Below, piece after piece: positions 599 through 8,771 of a stretch of 38,146 bases of DNA. The position numbers and the translations under genes are program-made. The notes under the pieces are model-generated. The model saw only the letters and a program-made list of their open reading frames with translations. It was not told the DNA's origin and made no database searches. How positions within the stretch are numbered: the first letter of the stretch is position 1; each line of letters opens with the position of its first letter. This DNA is from Candidatus Caldarchaeum sp. (GTDB lineage: Archaea; Thermoproteota; Nitrososphaeria_A; Caldarchaeales; Caldarchaeaceae): the NCBI GenBank assembly GCA_025054515.1, contig JANWZT010000002.1, positions 1-38,146 on the forward strand, in the 5' to 3' direction.

Positions 599-1177
599 AT
601 GGCAGAAATAAGTCAAGCCAGGTTAATTGGCGGAATCGGATCAATTCTTCTCCTTCTCGGCATCGTTCCCAGCGTAGGACCGGTTCTCGGCATCGTCGGT
701 CTAATCCTCTTGTTGCTTGCTCTACGGTATGTTTCGACAGCTGTGCAGCAGCCACCGATTTTCCAAAACGCCCTCTACGCCGTCATCATCGGTATAATCG
801 GGACTGTCGTAGCTCTTGCTCTTGGGGGCGCGACGTTGTTCGGTGCTCTCGGGGGCGGGTTTATGGGCCCGGTGGGAGATGAGTTTGCGCCAGATTTGTT
901 TGCCCTGTTTGCGGGAATATTGGTGGCCGTTTTGGTCGCTTGGATTTTCGGGGTTGCATCAAGCTTCTTCCTAAGGAGGGCATTCAACTTGACCGGCGAC
1001 GCCCTTGGAATCAAACTCTTCAAAACGGCGGGACTTCTCGTCTTCCTTGGTGCGATACTCACCATCATCCTCGTTGGAGCCATCATAACACTCGTAGCCT
1101 ACGTCCTTCTCGCAGTAGCGTTCTTCCAAATACCTGCAGAGGGAAGACAGCCCCCGCCTCCTCCACCTCCACCCTAA
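599..1177 (+). CDS. DUF996-like multi-TM membrane protein with proline-rich C-terminal tail
   Basis: 192 aa, several hydrophobic helices, Gly-rich loops, C-terminus EGRQPPPPPPPP. Confidence 0.65.
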   Translation: MAEISQARLIGGIGSILLLLGIVPSVGPVLGIVGLILLLLALRYVSTAVQQPPIFQNALYAVIIGIIGTVVALALGGATLFGALGGGFMGPVGDEFAPDLFALFAGILVAVLVAWIFGVASSFFLRRAFNLTGDALGIKLFKTAGLLVFLGAILTIILVGAIITLVAYVLLAVAFFQIPAEGRQPPPPPPPP

Positions 1178-1938
1178 GACCCCACCAACTCTAGTAAAGA
1201 CCTCATAAGCGAAGACGAAAACCCCACGTCCTTCACCCATACAACGACCGGCTCGTCGTCGAGCGGCAGCCCAATCAGAGCCTCCCCACCCTTCGTCACC
1301 AAAACATCCAACAACACGGCGTTGCTGTAGAAAACCTCCGCTCCGATTTTCTTAAAAAACGAGCTATCGTCTTCGCTGACTTCAACCGAAGGATGAAGGA
1401 TAAAAACTATTTTCTTCCCCACAAGCCCCTCCACCAACTTTTTGAACTGTTCCTTCAGCTTCGCAGCCTTCCTCACCGCGAAAACAAATTCATCAGAACT
1501 ATTCGTCATCTCGAGAAGCTTTACGGCGACGGGCGACAACCCACGTAGGATAGATGCGTCGGCTTCCTCCGACACTCGGGCCTTGACCCTGTTGAGTAGC
1601 GAAAGAACATGTTTGAGGTTTTTCGTCTTCTCTTCGAAAGCCGCTTCGATTCTTTCCCTCTCCTGTCTTACAAAATTCGCTAACGCATGCGACGGGTCGA
1701 GAGCCACATAACCATTTCCAGATTTCTGGATAAACCCCAACTCACAGAGGCTTTCCAACACGTCATAAACTCTCGTAACAGGCACTCCCGATCTCCGCGC
1801 AATTTCCTTCGGCTTGGCAGCTCCCTTCAACACAGAAACATAGGCCTTAGCCTGATACCTGTTGAGCCCGAAATTTTCCCGAAGAGCTTTGACAACCGCA
1901 TTTGCCCCGGCTTCCACAATATTTGAGCAGTTAGGCAT
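1174..1938 (-). CDS. TrmB-family transcriptional regulator
   Basis: N-terminal winged helix (LNRYQAKAYVSVLKGAAKPKEIARRSGVPVTRVYDVLESLCELGFIQ) followed by coiled-coil and effector-like domain. Confidence 0.85.
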   Translation of the reverse strand: MPNCSNIVEAGANAVVKALRENFGLNRYQAKAYVSVLKGAAKPKEIARRSGVPVTRVYDVLESLCELGFIQKSGNGYVALDPSHALANFVRQERERIEAAFEEKTKNLKHVLSLLNRVKARVSEEADASILRGLSPVAVKLLEMTNSSDEFVFAVRKAAKLKEQFKKLVEGLVGKKIVFILHPSVEVSEDDSSFFKKIGAEVFYSNAVLLDVLVTKGGEALIGLPLDDEPVVVWVKDVGFSSSLMRSLLELVGS

Positions 1939-2736: not shown

Positions 2737-4200
2737 ATGGAAACGACCGACGTCGACAAACCACTTTTTTTAACCGGCCACTCCGTATTCGACCAGATTT
2801 TCTACCTCAGACGCGGTATGACCGTTCTTCTTTCTGACGAAACTTTCAGCGAAGGCCGTTCCTTTCTCCGCGTGCTTCTGAAAAACCATCGTTCATCAAT
2901 GTATGAACTTGTTTCAGCACGGTTCCATCTTGCGGAGTCAAACCAGTTTTCTGTACCCGTTGAATCGCTACAAGACCTTTCCATATACGTCAACCAAAAA
3001 AGGAGAACAGAAAAAGGAAAAATCTTTGTACATCTCTATCTGCCCGAACTGCTGATCCGCCACAGTCCCGAAGAAGTTCTTAAAGTCATGGAGCTATGGC
3101 AGAAGGACGTCCTCAACGCGGGAAACATCGAGTTCTACCTCCTTCCACGCAACACCTTCGCCGATTTTGAAAGAAAAGCACGGGCAATAGTCGACGCCGT
3201 TATCGACATTCAGGTTGTGAAACAGGAAACCCGGTTTCTTTACTACTTTACTCCGATGAGGTCTTGTTCCCCGAGACATCATCTCAAAGGTGTCCAGTTT
3301 GAAATTTCAGATTCTAAGCTGCTTATCGAATGGGAAGGCGTTCTCGTCGATTCGCTTCCCTCCAAGATCGTTACCGCGAGCGACATCAGGAAGAAAATCG
3401 AGACAAAAGAGAAGGAAATGGTTTTGAAAGTCAACAACATCGAACCCGACGTCCTGACGGTTAACGACTACGTTATACTCACCAGCTTGGATGGCATGCC
3501 GTTGTGGACGGTCAAGATGTTGTACCCCGATAGATGGCCTGAGGTGGAGGAGAAGATTATACAATGGGCTGTGAGCGGAGTTCTGGGCTTTGACGAAGCT
3601 AAGTCCGAGAAAGTATACGAAAGCCGAAAAGGCCTGAAGTTGAGGAATCGACTTCTTCTCAGCGTTCCTACACAAATTGCGTTGTATTTGGTTTCTTTGT
3701 CAAAGGGTTTCTTGGGAAAACGTGTGAGAACAGTACCCTTAGACGCCCACCTGGCTGTGCTCGAAGCCATGAAAAACATCGTCGACTTGGCTTCCGCCAA
3801 AAACCCGGAAGTGAAAAGGGAGGCGAAGCTGGCGACGAGATATTTTGGCGAATTGTCTGCGAGGAAGACTGCCCTCGAATATGTCATCAGGCTCGAGGGA
3901 ACCCCCTATACAAACTTCCGACTCGAGTATGCTCCGAAGCTGGTGGCCATCAGTTTGAAAGCGGGCTGGGGGCTGGACGTCAATTTTATCTCCGAAGAGA
4001 AAGATAGCTGGCTTTTCGAGATCAAAAAATGTCATCTCTGTGAAGATGCGCATAGCAATGAGCCGTTTTGCGATAAGTTTGTGTCGAGCGTTGTTTCGGG
4101 TGTTTTGGGTGTCTGTTTGAAAAGACAGGTCGAATGTCATGAGATAACATGCAGGGCCATGGGGTCTGATAAATGTACTTTTAGGGCGTCTCTGGTCTGA
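2737..4200 (+). CDS. Degenerate KaiC/RAD55-like domain fused to a C-terminal V4R (4-vinyl reductase) domain
   Basis: N-terminal region aligns by eye with the KaiC-like protein at 6256-7008 but lacks a Walker A (SDETFSEGRSFL). C-terminus CHLCEDAHSNEPFCDKF...VECHEITCRAMGSDKCTF is V4R-like. Confidence 0.65.
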   Translation: METTDVDKPLFLTGHSVFDQIFYLRRGMTVLLSDETFSEGRSFLRVLLKNHRSSMYELVSARFHLAESNQFSVPVESLQDLSIYVNQKRRTEKGKIFVHLYLPELLIRHSPEEVLKVMELWQKDVLNAGNIEFYLLPRNTFADFERKARAIVDAVIDIQVVKQETRFLYYFTPMRSCSPRHHLKGVQFEISDSKLLIEWEGVLVDSLPSKIVTASDIRKKIETKEKEMVLKVNNIEPDVLTVNDYVILTSLDGMPLWTVKMLYPDRWPEVEEKIIQWAVSGVLGFDEAKSEKVYESRKGLKLRNRLLLSVPTQIALYLVSLSKGFLGKRVRTVPLDAHLAVLEAMKNIVDLASAKNPEVKREAKLATRYFGELSARKTALEYVIRLEGTPYTNFRLEYAPKLVAISLKAGWGLDVNFISEEKDSWLFEIKKCHLCEDAHSNEPFCDKFVSSVVSGVLGVCLKRQVECHEITCRAMGSDKCTFRASLV

Positions 4201-4218: not shown

Positions 4219-5070
4219 TTGAAGCTGTCGAGATGGGAGAAGATAAAGGGGATCGCGGCTCTTCCGAAATCCTATTTCTCTCTCTTTACATCGCCTTTGA
4301 TCGCTTCATCGACGATTTATGTAGTGACGGGCGGCGTCGTTGAAACAACCTTTTTACTCGGTATGTTTTTCTTTCTTTCAACGGCTTTTCTAAACTCCTT
4401 CAACAACATAATGGATACTAGGTCCGATCGCCTTACGAAGCAAAATTTCCCCCTTCCGAACGGTTTGGTAACTGTTAAACAGGCCGCGTTATTTTCGGCG
4501 GGCTTGTTTTCCGCGGCCTTTTTCGTCGCTACCGCCGGTTCGACACGATTCGCAACAACCAGCTACATTTTACTTTTCAATCTTTTGTTAGCGTTTCTAT
4601 ATTCAGCGCCGGTGATCAGGCTGAAACGCTATCCCATCGTCAAGGCCACGGTATTGATAGCACACACCGTTTTTCTACCCATGGCTGCGGCTGCGACGGC
4701 CGTCAACCGAGACATAACGTCGCACCTGCCTGTCGCGGCTCCCGTTTACCTGATGGGCCTCGCCATCCACACCATCCAAGACATCGGAGACGTCGCGGGC
4801 GATAGGCTGGTCGGCGACAAAACTTTTCCTATCCTTTTGGGAGTTAGGCGTTCGCTGGTCATCGTCTTGGCCCTGCTTCTCGGTGCAGGTGTTTCCGCTT
4901 GGTTTGTATCAGATAGTTTGCGATTTCCCGTCATGTTTGGTTTAGTCTCGATGGGTCTACTCGTATCCACGCTGTTCCTTCACCCCGGTCGGTGGAAGCA
5001 GGTGTTCTGGGGATGTTCGTTTTTGTCTTTTTTTGTCTTAATGCTGTTATTGGTCGAAACCTTTAGATGA
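4219..5070 (+). CDS. UbiA-family prenyltransferase
   Basis: Multi-TM protein with NNIMDTRSD (NxxxDxxxD) and DIGDVAGDRLVGDKTFPI (second Asp-rich motif). TTG start. Confidence 0.88.
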   Translation: MKLSRWEKIKGIAALPKSYFSLFTSPLIASSTIYVVTGGVVETTFLLGMFFFLSTAFLNSFNNIMDTRSDRLTKQNFPLPNGLVTVKQAALFSAGLFSAAFFVATAGSTRFATTSYILLFNLLLAFLYSAPVIRLKRYPIVKATVLIAHTVFLPMAAAATAVNRDITSHLPVAAPVYLMGLAIHTIQDIGDVAGDRLVGDKTFPILLGVRRSLVIVLALLLGAGVSAWFVSDSLRFPVMFGLVSMGLLVSTLFLHPGRWKQVFWGCSFLSFFVLMLLLVETFR

Positions 5071-6223
5071 GTTGCGAATAACGCATTAACTCCTTTGGGA
5101 CACGAGCCACGAGGAAGTCGAGGAAATGACTGGGGTTCTTTGATTTGAAGAACCACTTTCGAACCGTGAAGATCCGGAAGACGTTCATCGATGCGAGCAA
5201 GCTTTCTTGATTAAACGCTATGTATTTCGACGCTTGACGCAGATATTCAACTCCGAGAAGGTAGTGAAGGTCTCCAAGACGTATAGTATATCTTTTGAGG
5301 AGGTCGTTCGTCAGCGATTCTTCGGGGTTCGCGATGATCCCCAAATCTTTCCCGAGGTAGACGACGCTGTTCCAGATGCCGAGTTTCAGGTCTACTTCAA
5401 GGTCTGCGACGTCGTCGTAGTAGTTGGAGGATTTGAAGACGTAGTCGAAGCCTTTCCTGATGTATTCGAACCCTTTGTAATCGAGTTCGGTTTTTTCGCT
5501 GATGTGCTCGAGCATGCAGAGGTCAAGCCCGACCCAGACTCTTCCGACGCCTTTCTCGTTCATGTTCTTCAGGTAGTCGTGAATCGTCAGTTTATGCCTA
5601 ACCGCTTCATTCTGCTGTCGAAAAGTCGCGTTCTGTCCCGAAATATACAGTTCGAAGTCTTTGAAGAATGAATTGCGCATGACCGATGCTGTGTTGGTTT
5701 TTTTGTTAAGCCATTTGTTAACGAGTGCTGCAAGGGCTATGCAGGAATTTTCTGCTCTTCCTATGAAGTCGGTTTCTTCCGCTATGATGTATTGTCCGCG
5801 TGTTACCGCGTGCAGCTGTCGCTGAAGGGATGCTTCAGCCTGCTCTGTGGTGTGAAACGTGTCGTTGATGTTGTCGAGAACTTTGATGCTAAGTATCAGC
5901 GCCATCTTCGCTAAAACAGTTGAAAATATTTCGCTTCGAGATGCTTTCCTTTCCAGTAGCGGGTACGCCGAAATCGTCGCCATGTAGGCCGAATATGGAA
6001 GATATTTCTTTTTCATGACGCCAGCTGTCAGCATTTCGTCGTAGCTTGCTACGTGTTTGTTTTGGAGCATGGTGTGCATGCTCTTCTCGAAATAGGTCGA
6101 TGCCTCCCGGATTATCGAAAGCATATTTCTAAGGTTGGTTTTGTTGCCGGCGATGTACCGTAGCATGGCGAGTCCAGCTGATTTGGTAAAATAGTCTAAC
6201 CCCTCCCCCCTACTTTGGCTCAC
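5063..6223 (-). CDS. Divergent class-I isoprenoid-synthase-fold protein (terpene/prenyl synthase-like)
   Basis: All-alpha 386 aa protein with two Asp-rich motifs: KVLDNINDTFH and YYDDVADLEVDLKLGIWN. Neighbour of ubiA. Confidence 0.5.
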   Translation of the reverse strand: MSQSRGEGLDYFTKSAGLAMLRYIAGNKTNLRNMLSIIREASTYFEKSMHTMLQNKHVASYDEMLTAGVMKKKYLPYSAYMATISAYPLLERKASRSEIFSTVLAKMALILSIKVLDNINDTFHTTEQAEASLQRQLHAVTRGQYIIAEETDFIGRAENSCIALAALVNKWLNKKTNTASVMRNSFFKDFELYISGQNATFRQQNEAVRHKLTIHDYLKNMNEKGVGRVWVGLDLCMLEHISEKTELDYKGFEYIRKGFDYVFKSSNYYDDVADLEVDLKLGIWNSVVYLGKDLGIIANPEESLTNDLLKRYTIRLGDLHYLLGVEYLRQASKYIAFNQESLLASMNVFRIFTVRKWFFKSKNPSHFLDFLVARVPKELMRYSQLI

Positions 6224-6255: not shown

Positions 6256-7008
6256 TCATAAAACTTTCTCGGTTGGGAAGACTTCCAGCCCTCCCCGCGT
6301 AAACCGGTATGGATGCGGTTCGACGTTGTGGTTAACCCCTCTCATCTTCTCCACTTGGATGGACCTGACGATGGCTGAATTTTTGCCCTGTTTCCTCAAT
6401 ATGATCACGCCGTCTGCGAGGAATTCTTCAAACTGGTAGGGCCTGTCCATCCCGCTGAAGCGTAGCTCGGTTAGAAGGATGGTCGTGCAATTGAGTGGTG
6501 TGATTCCTTCCAAAAGTTCCATGAAAGCGGCTCTTCTTTCGGCGCCCCTCGGATACTGGATGAAGAAGGAAGTCAGAGAGTCTATGACGAGCCGTTTCGC
6601 GTTTATGTTGCGGACGTGGTTCGTGACCGCGGCGATGAGGGCCGCAAGTGAAAAATCTTTTTTACCGATCGATATGCCGCCGAGCTTAACCTCTCCGGGT
6701 ATCGTTCGGATTGGCGATGCATCAACTATCGATATGTTGCCTTTCTGGAGAAACTCGGTCAAATCTATTCCGAGGTTGAGGACGTTTCGCAACACGCTTT
6801 CCGGCCTTTCATCTAAGGTAACGTAGACTCCGTTTTCTCCGTTGAGACATCCGTAATAGAGAAACTGAAGGCCGAAAGTTGTCTTTCCCGACCCGGGCGA
6901 GCCCATCACGACGATGTTGAAGCCTGAGGGAAAACCTTTGTTCTCCAATAGAGCGTCCAACCCCATAATCCCCGTGGCGACAAACTGTAGCTTATCCGTC
7001 CTGTTCAC
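6256..7008 (-). CDS. KaiC-like RecA-superfamily ATPase, single domain
   Basis: GIMGLDALLENKGFPSGFNIVVMGSPGSGKTTFGLQFLY (Walker A), KRLVIDSLTSFF (Walker B), VEKMRGVNHNVEPHPYRFTRGGLEVF C-terminal KaiC signature. GTG start. Confidence 0.92.
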   Translation of the reverse strand: MNRTDKLQFVATGIMGLDALLENKGFPSGFNIVVMGSPGSGKTTFGLQFLYYGCLNGENGVYVTLDERPESVLRNVLNLGIDLTEFLQKGNISIVDASPIRTIPGEVKLGGISIGKKDFSLAALIAAVTNHVRNINAKRLVIDSLTSFFIQYPRGAERRAAFMELLEGITPLNCTTILLTELRFSGMDRPYQFEEFLADGVIILRKQGKNSAIVRSIQVEKMRGVNHNVEPHPYRFTRGGLEVFPTEKVL

Positions 7009-7080: not shown

Positions 7081-7899
7081 TTGCTCCGAACGTTTCATTT
7101 GGTTTATCCGGTTTTGGCCACTTTAGCGATGGCCGTGGTTTTTCAGTCCGTGGTGGAGGGAGTCATGCTTCCGCAGCCTCCGATCACACCTTTAGAGGAA
7201 TCGGGCGGCGGGATTACGGAGCTGGTTTCGCCGACACCGTACCTGAATACGTTGACTGTCTTGGCGGTTGTTTTTGCAGGGAGTATGTTGATGATTGCTT
7301 TAATGAAGTTCAGGCGGGTTCTAAGATTTTTCATTATGGCGGTTCTTTTCACAACGTCTTTTGCCGTAACTTTTTTCTATGTTCTCCTCGCTTTTGATGT
7401 CGACTTGAATATAGTTTCGCTTTTCTCTGGCCTCTTGGGTCTAGCCGTGGTTTTAGGCGTGTTCTCTTCCAAAGAATATGTGAATGTCTTGGCATCTGCT
7501 TATGTGGCTTCGTCATGCGGCGTCGTCTTCGGCTCCTCGATGCCGTTTTGGACTTCTCTCGTGCTTCTTGTGGCTATCGCCGTTTATGACTTTGTCGCGG
7601 TCTTCAAAGGCCATCTCAAAATGCTGGGCAAAATCGACATGAACGACGTAAAGGGCTTGGTCGTCAACTACCAAGGCCTTAGCATAGGTCTCGGCGACCT
7701 CTTTTTCTACACGGTTCTTTTCAGTTTCGTGACGACGAACTTCGGCTGGCTCCCGGGGGTAGCGTCGTTGGCTGGACTCGTAGCGGGCTATTTGCTCACG
7801 CTCAAGTTTGCGGAAAAAAGGCCCGTGTTCCCGGGTTTACCGATAACAATCATGACAGCCCTCGCGATATCACTCGTCATCTACTTTCTCATTTTATGA
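7081..7899 (+). CDS. Presenilin/signal-peptide-peptidase-type intramembrane aspartyl protease (PSH family)
   Basis: Polytopic membrane protein with VAIAVYDFVAVF (YD), GLSIGLGDLFFYTV (GxGD) and FPGLPITI (PAL-like). TTG start. Confidence 0.88.
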   Translation: MLRTFHLVYPVLATLAMAVVFQSVVEGVMLPQPPITPLEESGGGITELVSPTPYLNTLTVLAVVFAGSMLMIALMKFRRVLRFFIMAVLFTTSFAVTFFYVLLAFDVDLNIVSLFSGLLGLAVVLGVFSSKEYVNVLASAYVASSCGVVFGSSMPFWTSLVLLVAIAVYDFVAVFKGHLKMLGKIDMNDVKGLVVNYQGLSIGLGDLFFYTVLFSFVTTNFGWLPGVASLAGLVAGYLLTLKFAEKRPVFPGLPITIMTALAISLVIYFLIL

Positions 7900-8771
7900 C
7901 CATGTATTCCCCCGAAGAGATCGCCCGATGCTGCACTTCAGCCCTGCTGCTCGAGCTCGCCACCACCCCGAAGCCCGGGTTGGTTGACAGAAATTCGGCG
8001 CCGGAGCCTTATTCGCAGTTCATCGCATCCGCCGTGTCCCTTTACCGCCATTTTAGACAGGCCGCAGCCGGAGCTTCGGTCGGAAAAGTCGTTGTCCGCG
8101 CCGCGGAGGACATGATGAAAATACAGACCGGCGGAAACACCCATCTCGGAGCGCTTCTACTTCTCACACCGTTGGCAAAAGCCGCTGCTCGAACTGAGAA
8201 ATTTTCGGAACTGAGGCCTACGGTTTTAACTGTTTTAGAGAAGATGAACAGCGTTGACATGGCGCTGATTCTGCAGGCGGTTCGGGCTGTGAACCCGGGA
8301 GGGCTTGGACGCGTGGCCTTTCTCGACGTCAAATCACCGAGAACACGTAAAATCGTCCTCAAAAGGCGTCTATCTGTCCTCGACGGCTTCTCCCCTTACC
8401 GACGTATGGAGGTCGTAGCCCACGAATACACCACGGGTTACGAGGCAAGTTTCGTGCACGGATATCTGTACCTTAGAAGGAGGCTTCAACACGAGGACTG
8501 GAACACCGCCGGCGTAAACACTTTCCTCAACATCCTCAGCCATCTGCCCGACAGCCACATCTCCCGCAGGTTCGGGCCAGCGACCTCACGGATGATTTCA
8601 CGGCTCGCCAAACGTGTCCTTGACTCCGGAGGATACACGACTGATGAAGGCCGTAAAAACTACGAACAATTCGCGCAACGAATAAAAGCCGCAGGGTTCA
8701 AGCCGGCGGCCACGGCGGACCTTCTCGCCGTCTCCTACATGATTCTTCTTCTCAGCGGCTGGAGACCTTGA
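7896..8771 (+). CDS. CitG/MdcB-family (triphosphoribosyl-dephospho-CoA synthase-like) protein
   Basis: TPKPGLVDRNSAPEPYSQFIASA and GGNTHLGALLLLTPLA match CitG family motifs. ATGA overlap with the preceding gene. Confidence 0.8.
   Translation: MTMYSPEEIARCCTSALLLELATTPKPGLVDRNSAPEPYSQFIASAVSLYRHFRQAAAGASVGKVVVRAAEDMMKIQTGGNTHLGALLLLTPLAKAAARTEKFSELRPTVLTVLEKMNSVDMALILQAVRAVNPGGLGRVAFLDVKSPRTRKIVLKRRLSVLDGFSPYRRMEVVAHEYTTGYEASFVHGYLYLRRRLQHEDWNTAGVNTFLNILSHLPDSHISRRFGPATSRMISRLAKRVLDSGGYTTDEGRKNYEQFAQRIKAAGFKPAATADLLAVSYMILLLSGWRP

Follow-up and report, generated by a model that had tools for sequence, protein, structure and literature searches.

What does a KaiC-like domain do once it has apparently lost its ATP-binding motif and become fused to a V4R domain, and with which partner does it work? 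This question is raised by an open reading frame encoding 487 amino acids at positions 2737–4200, on the forward strand of a 38,146-nucleotide stretch of Candidatus Caldarchaeum DNA, the whole of which is called the window here. The product, designated KV4R hereafter, was characterized through the reading frame itself, an alignment of its 19-member family and an AlphaFold model, and appears to be an inactivated KaiC-like (iKaiC) protein joined to V4R. A first-pass annotation had described it as a RecA/KaiC-fold protein that is catalytically dead and carries a V4R domain. This is borne out by the fold of the model, by the comparison of profiles, and by the absence of the P-loop lysine throughout the family; structure prediction places a RecA-type fold at the N-terminus and a V4R fold at the C-terminus. 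Full-length homologues occur within the Caldarchaeum genus and family at 62, 62, and 47% identity, and more distant ones are scattered across the phylum at 24–30% identity, the lineages being Caldarchaeum subterraneum, archaeon HR01, Terraquivivens, Methanomethylicota/Methanomethylicales, Bathyarchaeota, and Hecatella. Differences from the nearest relative amount to 0.29/0.18/0.62 at the three codon positions and thus fall mainly on position 3. The open reading frame is therefore a real gene, and its product is a protein under selection. In one of the 19 members, Pfam also gives a match to the death domain of TNFRSF11B at E 1.7e-4, which does not reach the cut-off and is regarded as chance.

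The N-terminal domain, covering residues about 10–205 (2764–3351, forward strand), was delimited from pLDDT values, Foldseek, and hhalign. In the AlphaFold model built on the family alignment, pLDDT in this region is mostly near 90, and the top 30 or so Foldseek matches in the PDB are KaiC-like or closely related proteins. The best one is the KaiC-like protein 2zts (E 1.4e-7, target TM 0.65), followed by entries such as the KaiC CI domain and FlaH (4yds), with RecA and Elp456 lower down. Sequence searches are far less telling: phmmer of KV4R against the PDB gave no match, and the Pfam models for KaiC, MEDS, and DUF835 match the N-terminal half of none of the 19 members. An intact KaiC-like ATPase is encoded nearby on the reverse strand (6256–7008; PF06745, E 9.7e-60). 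The first-pass annotation had aligned KV4R with this protein in two blocks, TGHSVFDQIF with TGIMGLDALL and MRSCSPRHH with EKMRGVNHN. Pairwise BLASTP is blank in these blocks, so that the likeness is not demonstrable from the two sequences alone, while hhalign places both pairs in the same register as had been proposed. In that comparison, the N-domain profile of the KV4R family and that of 28 KaiC-like proteins align end to end over 185 columns with a score of 24.2; the nominal E-value of 0.0085 is weak, yet the score lies above all of 150 column shuffles used as control (mean 14.0, maximum 20.1). The broader KaiC set is needed for this result, since with only ten KaiC sequences the C-terminal hairpin alone is aligned (E 0.01–0.02). 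A KaiC-like fold of the N-terminus is thus supported, and much more clearly by the predicted structure than by the profile match.

The P-loop region has degenerated throughout the family. At the place of Walker A, residues 33–42 read SDETFSEGRS (2833–2862, forward strand) instead of GxxGxGKT, as the first-pass annotation had noticed, and the family alignment columns confirm the loss: the P-loop lysine is missing in 19 of 19 members, Asp34 is invariant, and position 39 is Glu or Asp. In the AlphaFold model, the strand ending at Asp34 and the helix starting from residue 38 sit where KaiC has beta-1, P-loop, and alpha-1. In an ungapped register, Asp34 and Glu39 fall on P-loop glycine positions, with the Asp at the first glycine; hhalign favors a gap at this loop, which makes the exact register unsure, and the lysine is lost in either register. 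Furthermore, an invariant His99 occupies the presumed position of the Walker B Asp, in a register assigned by eye. With the lysine lost in all members, and with acidic residues and His99 at the presumed motif positions, normal ATP binding by KV4R is unlikely as far as the sequences tell. The KaiC at 6256–7008, which has in common with KV4R the fold and the weak profile similarity, differs in being a single-domain protein with an intact Walker A (GSPGSGKTT) and no V4R.

Inactivated relatives of KaiC are already known: the MEDS and DUF835 domains have been labeled iKaiC in the study that cites the proposal of KaiC as a hub (PMC5847659). KV4R resembles them (MEDS, PF14417; DUF835, PF05763) in combining a KaiC-like fold, loss of the ATPase motifs, and fusion to signaling domains, and judging from sequence and model it would belong to this class while matching no listed family. 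Unlike them, it is fused to V4R and linked to a terpene-synthase-fold gene (see below), and it matches neither model. Membership in MEDS was rejected by hhalign against six MEDS domains, although KaiC and MEDS do show some mutual similarity.

The C-terminal part carries a V4R/Bet3-type domain at residues about 335–486 (3739–4194, forward strand), which was recognized from PF02830, an HMM match to MJ1460, and homology to stand-alone V4R proteins. PF02830 scores 36.3 bits at residues 427–484 (E 6e-9; cut-off 31), and a V4R match is found in 18 of the 19 members at E 0.1 or better. Searches with the family profile also find MJ1460 (2osd, E 3.4e-7) and, at profile positions 425–467, a weak match to the phenol sensor MopR (E 0.4–0.6). 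The first-pass annotation was right about the presence of V4R but put it at residues 400–487, whereas the fold seems to begin at about 335. Within the domain, five cysteines and one glutamate arranged as C432-x2-C435, C445, E469-x2-C472, and C480 (4030–4176, forward strand) are invariant in 19 of 19 members, forming a putative V4R-type zinc site plus an extra CxxC. C445, E469, C472, and C480 line up with MopR residues; in DmpR, the zinc ligands are three cysteines and one glutamate (PMC7264223), and the spacing of C206, C232, and C240, which are MsvR cysteines, agrees with that in KV4R to within one residue (PMC3729527). KV4R shares with V4R sensors (MsvR, MopR/DmpR/PoxR, and the stand-alone MJ1460 type) a C-terminal V4R with a MopR-like Cys/Glu pattern. 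It is unlike them in the additional invariant CxxC and in its output part, where an inactivated KaiC-like domain takes the place of an active AAA+ or a DNA-binding one. When the V4R matches of 61 genomes were compared, open reading frames of 440–520 amino acids were found only for the KV4R family and its paralogue. The equivalog model of BchJ (TIGR02019) gives 21.1 bits against a curated 74.3.

Between the two domains lies a small unit of residues about 236–290 (3442–3606, forward strand), which the AlphaFold secondary structure shows as helix-helix-helix-strand and which has no Pfam match. Since this arrangement at 242–287 fits a winged helix in the model, the unit is possibly winged-helix-like, and KV4R might then be a transcription regulator comparable to MsvR or DmpR, in which V4R is the sensor and the surrounding isoprenoid genes are the target. 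A precedent for such an arrangement is given by MsvR and DmpR, whose V4R is fused to a DNA-binding or an AAA+ domain. We nevertheless regard it as unlikely: KV4R has no match to DNA-binding families, its score against the MsvR equivalog (NF053755) is 20.6 bits against a curated 220 with the MsvR matches confined to V4R, and the operon in Caldarchaeum is already headed by a separate regulator of the TrmB family (1174–1938, reverse strand; PF01978, E 1.8e-14), which is divergent from the next gene, encoding a UbiE-type methyltransferase, and is kept in the Caldarchaeum family.

The main conserved partner of KV4R is a different gene, overlooked in the first-pass annotation and kept in nearly all lineages. 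It lies 0.9 kb downstream of the KV4R gene (5063–6223, reverse strand) and encodes a 386-residue protein, termed P3 here. Of 400 genomes sampled from the phylum, 16 encode full-length KV4R and 16 encode full-length P3, and the two sets are identical; they represent six families, and both proteins are absent from close relatives such as the genomes G004 and G007. The two genes lie within 1.4 kb of each other in 16 of the 16 genomes, with varied relative orientation, and overlap by 4 bp at one locus (L027). A scan of genome contigs with a single protein as query found nothing, while the same scan with the P3 alignment found 17 loci. Further linked cases in Bathyarchaeota and Hecatella are L082, L084, L085, and L091, with L093 cut by a contig end; L086, where the contig ends beside P3, was left out of the adjacency count. 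The gene trees of KV4R and P3 are congruent (distance correlation 0.89, reached in 0 of 2000 permutations), to which species descent contributes. The linkage is near-obligatory, and neither protein is strictly needed for the other, because one Bathyarchaeota genome (G400, locus L083) has P3 and lacks KV4R, and a paralogue of KV4R is found with no P3 beside it. In the former, a geranylgeranyl-reductase-family gene directly follows P3 (L083:7845–10591), and KV4R is found nowhere in the assembly. The latter is flanked in Caldarchaeum genomes by complex I genes of the NuoM and NuoL types (L033:6551–7957, L034:6682–8019, and L035:8036–9514), and a paralogue of the same type is found on contig C255 of the source genome. 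In Caldarchaeales, Methanomethylicia, Bathyarchaeia, and Hecatella alike, an inactivated KaiC is linked to one particular predicted enzyme.

P3 has no family match in Pfam, NCBIfam, or PDB sequences, and its assignment comes from the predicted structure. The AlphaFold model (pLDDT 91.8, pTM 0.91) is all-helical, and its top Foldseek matches, 9kgb (E 1.3e-5), 7e4o, 7e4n, and 5nx5, are all class I terpene synthases; lower matches include 5yo8, a large-terpene enzyme, and class IB enzymes, 6loo among them. A threshold of E 0.001 is passed by seven matches, and TM-scores are about 0.5–0.66, so that P3 is likely to have the class I terpenoid synthase fold as a distant member. P3 also has two Asp-rich motifs. 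The first, of the metal-binding type, is L116-D117-N118-x-N120-D121 (5861–5878, reverse strand), which is DDxxD-like and invariant in 16 members; the second is Y269-D270-D271-xx-D274-xxx-D278 (5390–5419, reverse strand), whose invariant residues have the spacing of the NSE/DTE triad. In bacterial terpene synthases, the NSE triad is usually preceded by a pyrophosphate-sensor Arg at a distance of 46 residues and followed, 8–9 residues on, by a conserved Asn (PMC8450962). In P3, an invariant Lys224 is located exactly 46 residues before D270, and a near-invariant N285 and an invariant S286 follow D278 by 7 and 8 residues, respectively. The motifs are in the expected order and spacing, but their letters, DNxND and DDxxDxxxD, differ from the canonical DDxxD and NDxxSxxxE (NSE/DTE); as this first motif is unusual, and so is the substitution of Lys for the sensor Arg, P3 could be inactive. 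P3 further departs from known class I terpene synthases in being archaeal and without a sequence family match. A full-text search of open-licence papers found no description of either a KaiC-V4R architecture or archaeal class I terpene synthases. If the model is correct, P3 would represent an archaeal class I terpene-synthase-fold family outside current family libraries, which is more surprising than KV4R itself. The possibility that P3 is the sole prenyl diphosphate synthase of the cell was ruled out, since canonical polyprenyl synthases are encoded separately in the genome, which also has six UbiA matches.

The genes around the pair share an isoprenoid theme. In the window, a UbiE/MenG-type methyltransferase gene (1975–2679; PF01209, E 2.3e-18) lies 57 bp upstream of KV4R and a UbiA-family prenyltransferase gene (4219–5070; PF01040, E 2.7e-27) 18 bp downstream of it, both on the forward strand like KV4R; these two neighbors are conserved in the Caldarchaeum family only. 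A geranylgeranyl-reductase-family gene is located between P3 and KV4R at L061 and L085, that is, in genome G229 and one Bathyarchaeota locus. The source genome also encodes a stand-alone V4R protein at a distance of about 2 kb from a further gene of the UbiA family (L066:2930–4261 and 6492–6905).

Taking these results together, we propose, with a probability of about one half, that KV4R is an ATP-independent sensor of a prenyl or terpenoid ligand, or an accessory subunit, for the archaeal terpene-synthase-fold enzyme P3. Because the ATP site is lost, V4R is of a kind that binds greasy molecules, and P3 adjoins, KV4R is probably a sensor or handler of a membrane-lipid-type molecule and not an ATP user. 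It would act with P3 in signaling or as an accessory protein, with an inactivated KaiC-like domain as its base: its V4R pocket may bind a prenyl or terpenoid molecule that is the substrate or product of P3, and the KaiC-like domain may offer an oligomerization or docking surface. Ligand binding would then be relayed to P3 through direct contact, or to the neighboring KaiC or TrmB regulator, and the output in Caldarchaeum would go into a UbiE/UbiA branch, for example one that leads to a quinone with an isoprenoid chain or to a different prenylated lipid. We infer here the ligand, a KV4R–P3 complex, catalysis, and regulation alike. Several points tell against the proposal: the shared gene histories partly reflect species descent, each protein has been found without the other (P3 at L083, the paralogue at L033–L035), the atypical motif and Lys leave room for an inactive P3, and the UbiA/UbiE link is limited to one family. 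More tentatively, KV4R and P3 may constitute a two-component module of the TACK group, in which V4R senses or channels the isoprenoid of P3 and the synthesis of membrane terpenoids or quinones is set by ligand and not by nucleotide. KaiC-like ATPases have been proposed as central signaling hubs in archaea, and inactivated versions are found in signaling proteins; KV4R would supply a concrete partner and a ligand class for one of these.

A link to quinone chemistry is also possible from respiratory genes near the module, namely a NuoL-type gene about 2 kb away in HR01 (L025:12945–14852) and succinate dehydrogenase genes about 4 kb away in Terraquivivens (L026:2463–5725). Together with the place of the paralogue between nuoM- and nuoL-type genes, these would suit a KV4R that is mainly a redox sensor, whose invariant cysteines respond to oxidation and report the respiratory or quinone state. 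Cysteines of the MsvR V4R do act in redox switching (PMC3729527), and all five of KV4R, with the glutamate, are strictly kept. Such a role is nonetheless improbable, as the same Cys/Glu positions match the zinc site of MopR/DmpR, and the strongest linkage of KV4R is to the terpene-synthase-fold gene.

What, then, of the intact KaiC next door, with which the first-pass annotation had suggested a regulatory heteromer? A KaiC gene is near the KV4R/P3 module in about three of six clades, i.e., the Caldarchaeum family, Methanomethylicia, and a clade of G060 plus Hecatella, which are sisters in both the KV4R and P3 gene trees. This proximity exceeds chance (P about 0.002, a Poisson estimate), and in Caldarchaeum, HR01, G060, and G122 no other KaiC of the genome matches better than the module-linked one. 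Rings are commonly formed by KaiC-fold proteins, and Elp456, one of the structural matches of KV4R, is a RecA-like heteromer. KV4R might accordingly join the intact KaiC in a mixed ring as a non-hydrolyzing, ligand-controlling subunit. The Terraquivivens and Bathyarchaeota loci, however, have no module-linked KaiC despite KaiC copies elsewhere in those genomes. The linkage is suggestive and not universal, which lends the heteromer weak support, and we consider it doubtful in comparison with a partnership of KV4R and P3.

Some other genes recur around the module. HAD phosphatase genes are found beside it in Terraquivivens, Methanomethylicia, Bathyarchaeota, G060, and Hecatella (L026:8748–9479, L029:8867–9535, L062:10502–11296, L063:8220–8915, and L091:10826–11482); they belong to different subfamilies, IB and IA, and were rejected as a part of the module. 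In the window, a gene for a presenilin/signal-peptide-peptidase-like protein overlaps by 4 bp with a CitG-family gene (7081–8771, forward strand), and both are kept beside the module in the genus.
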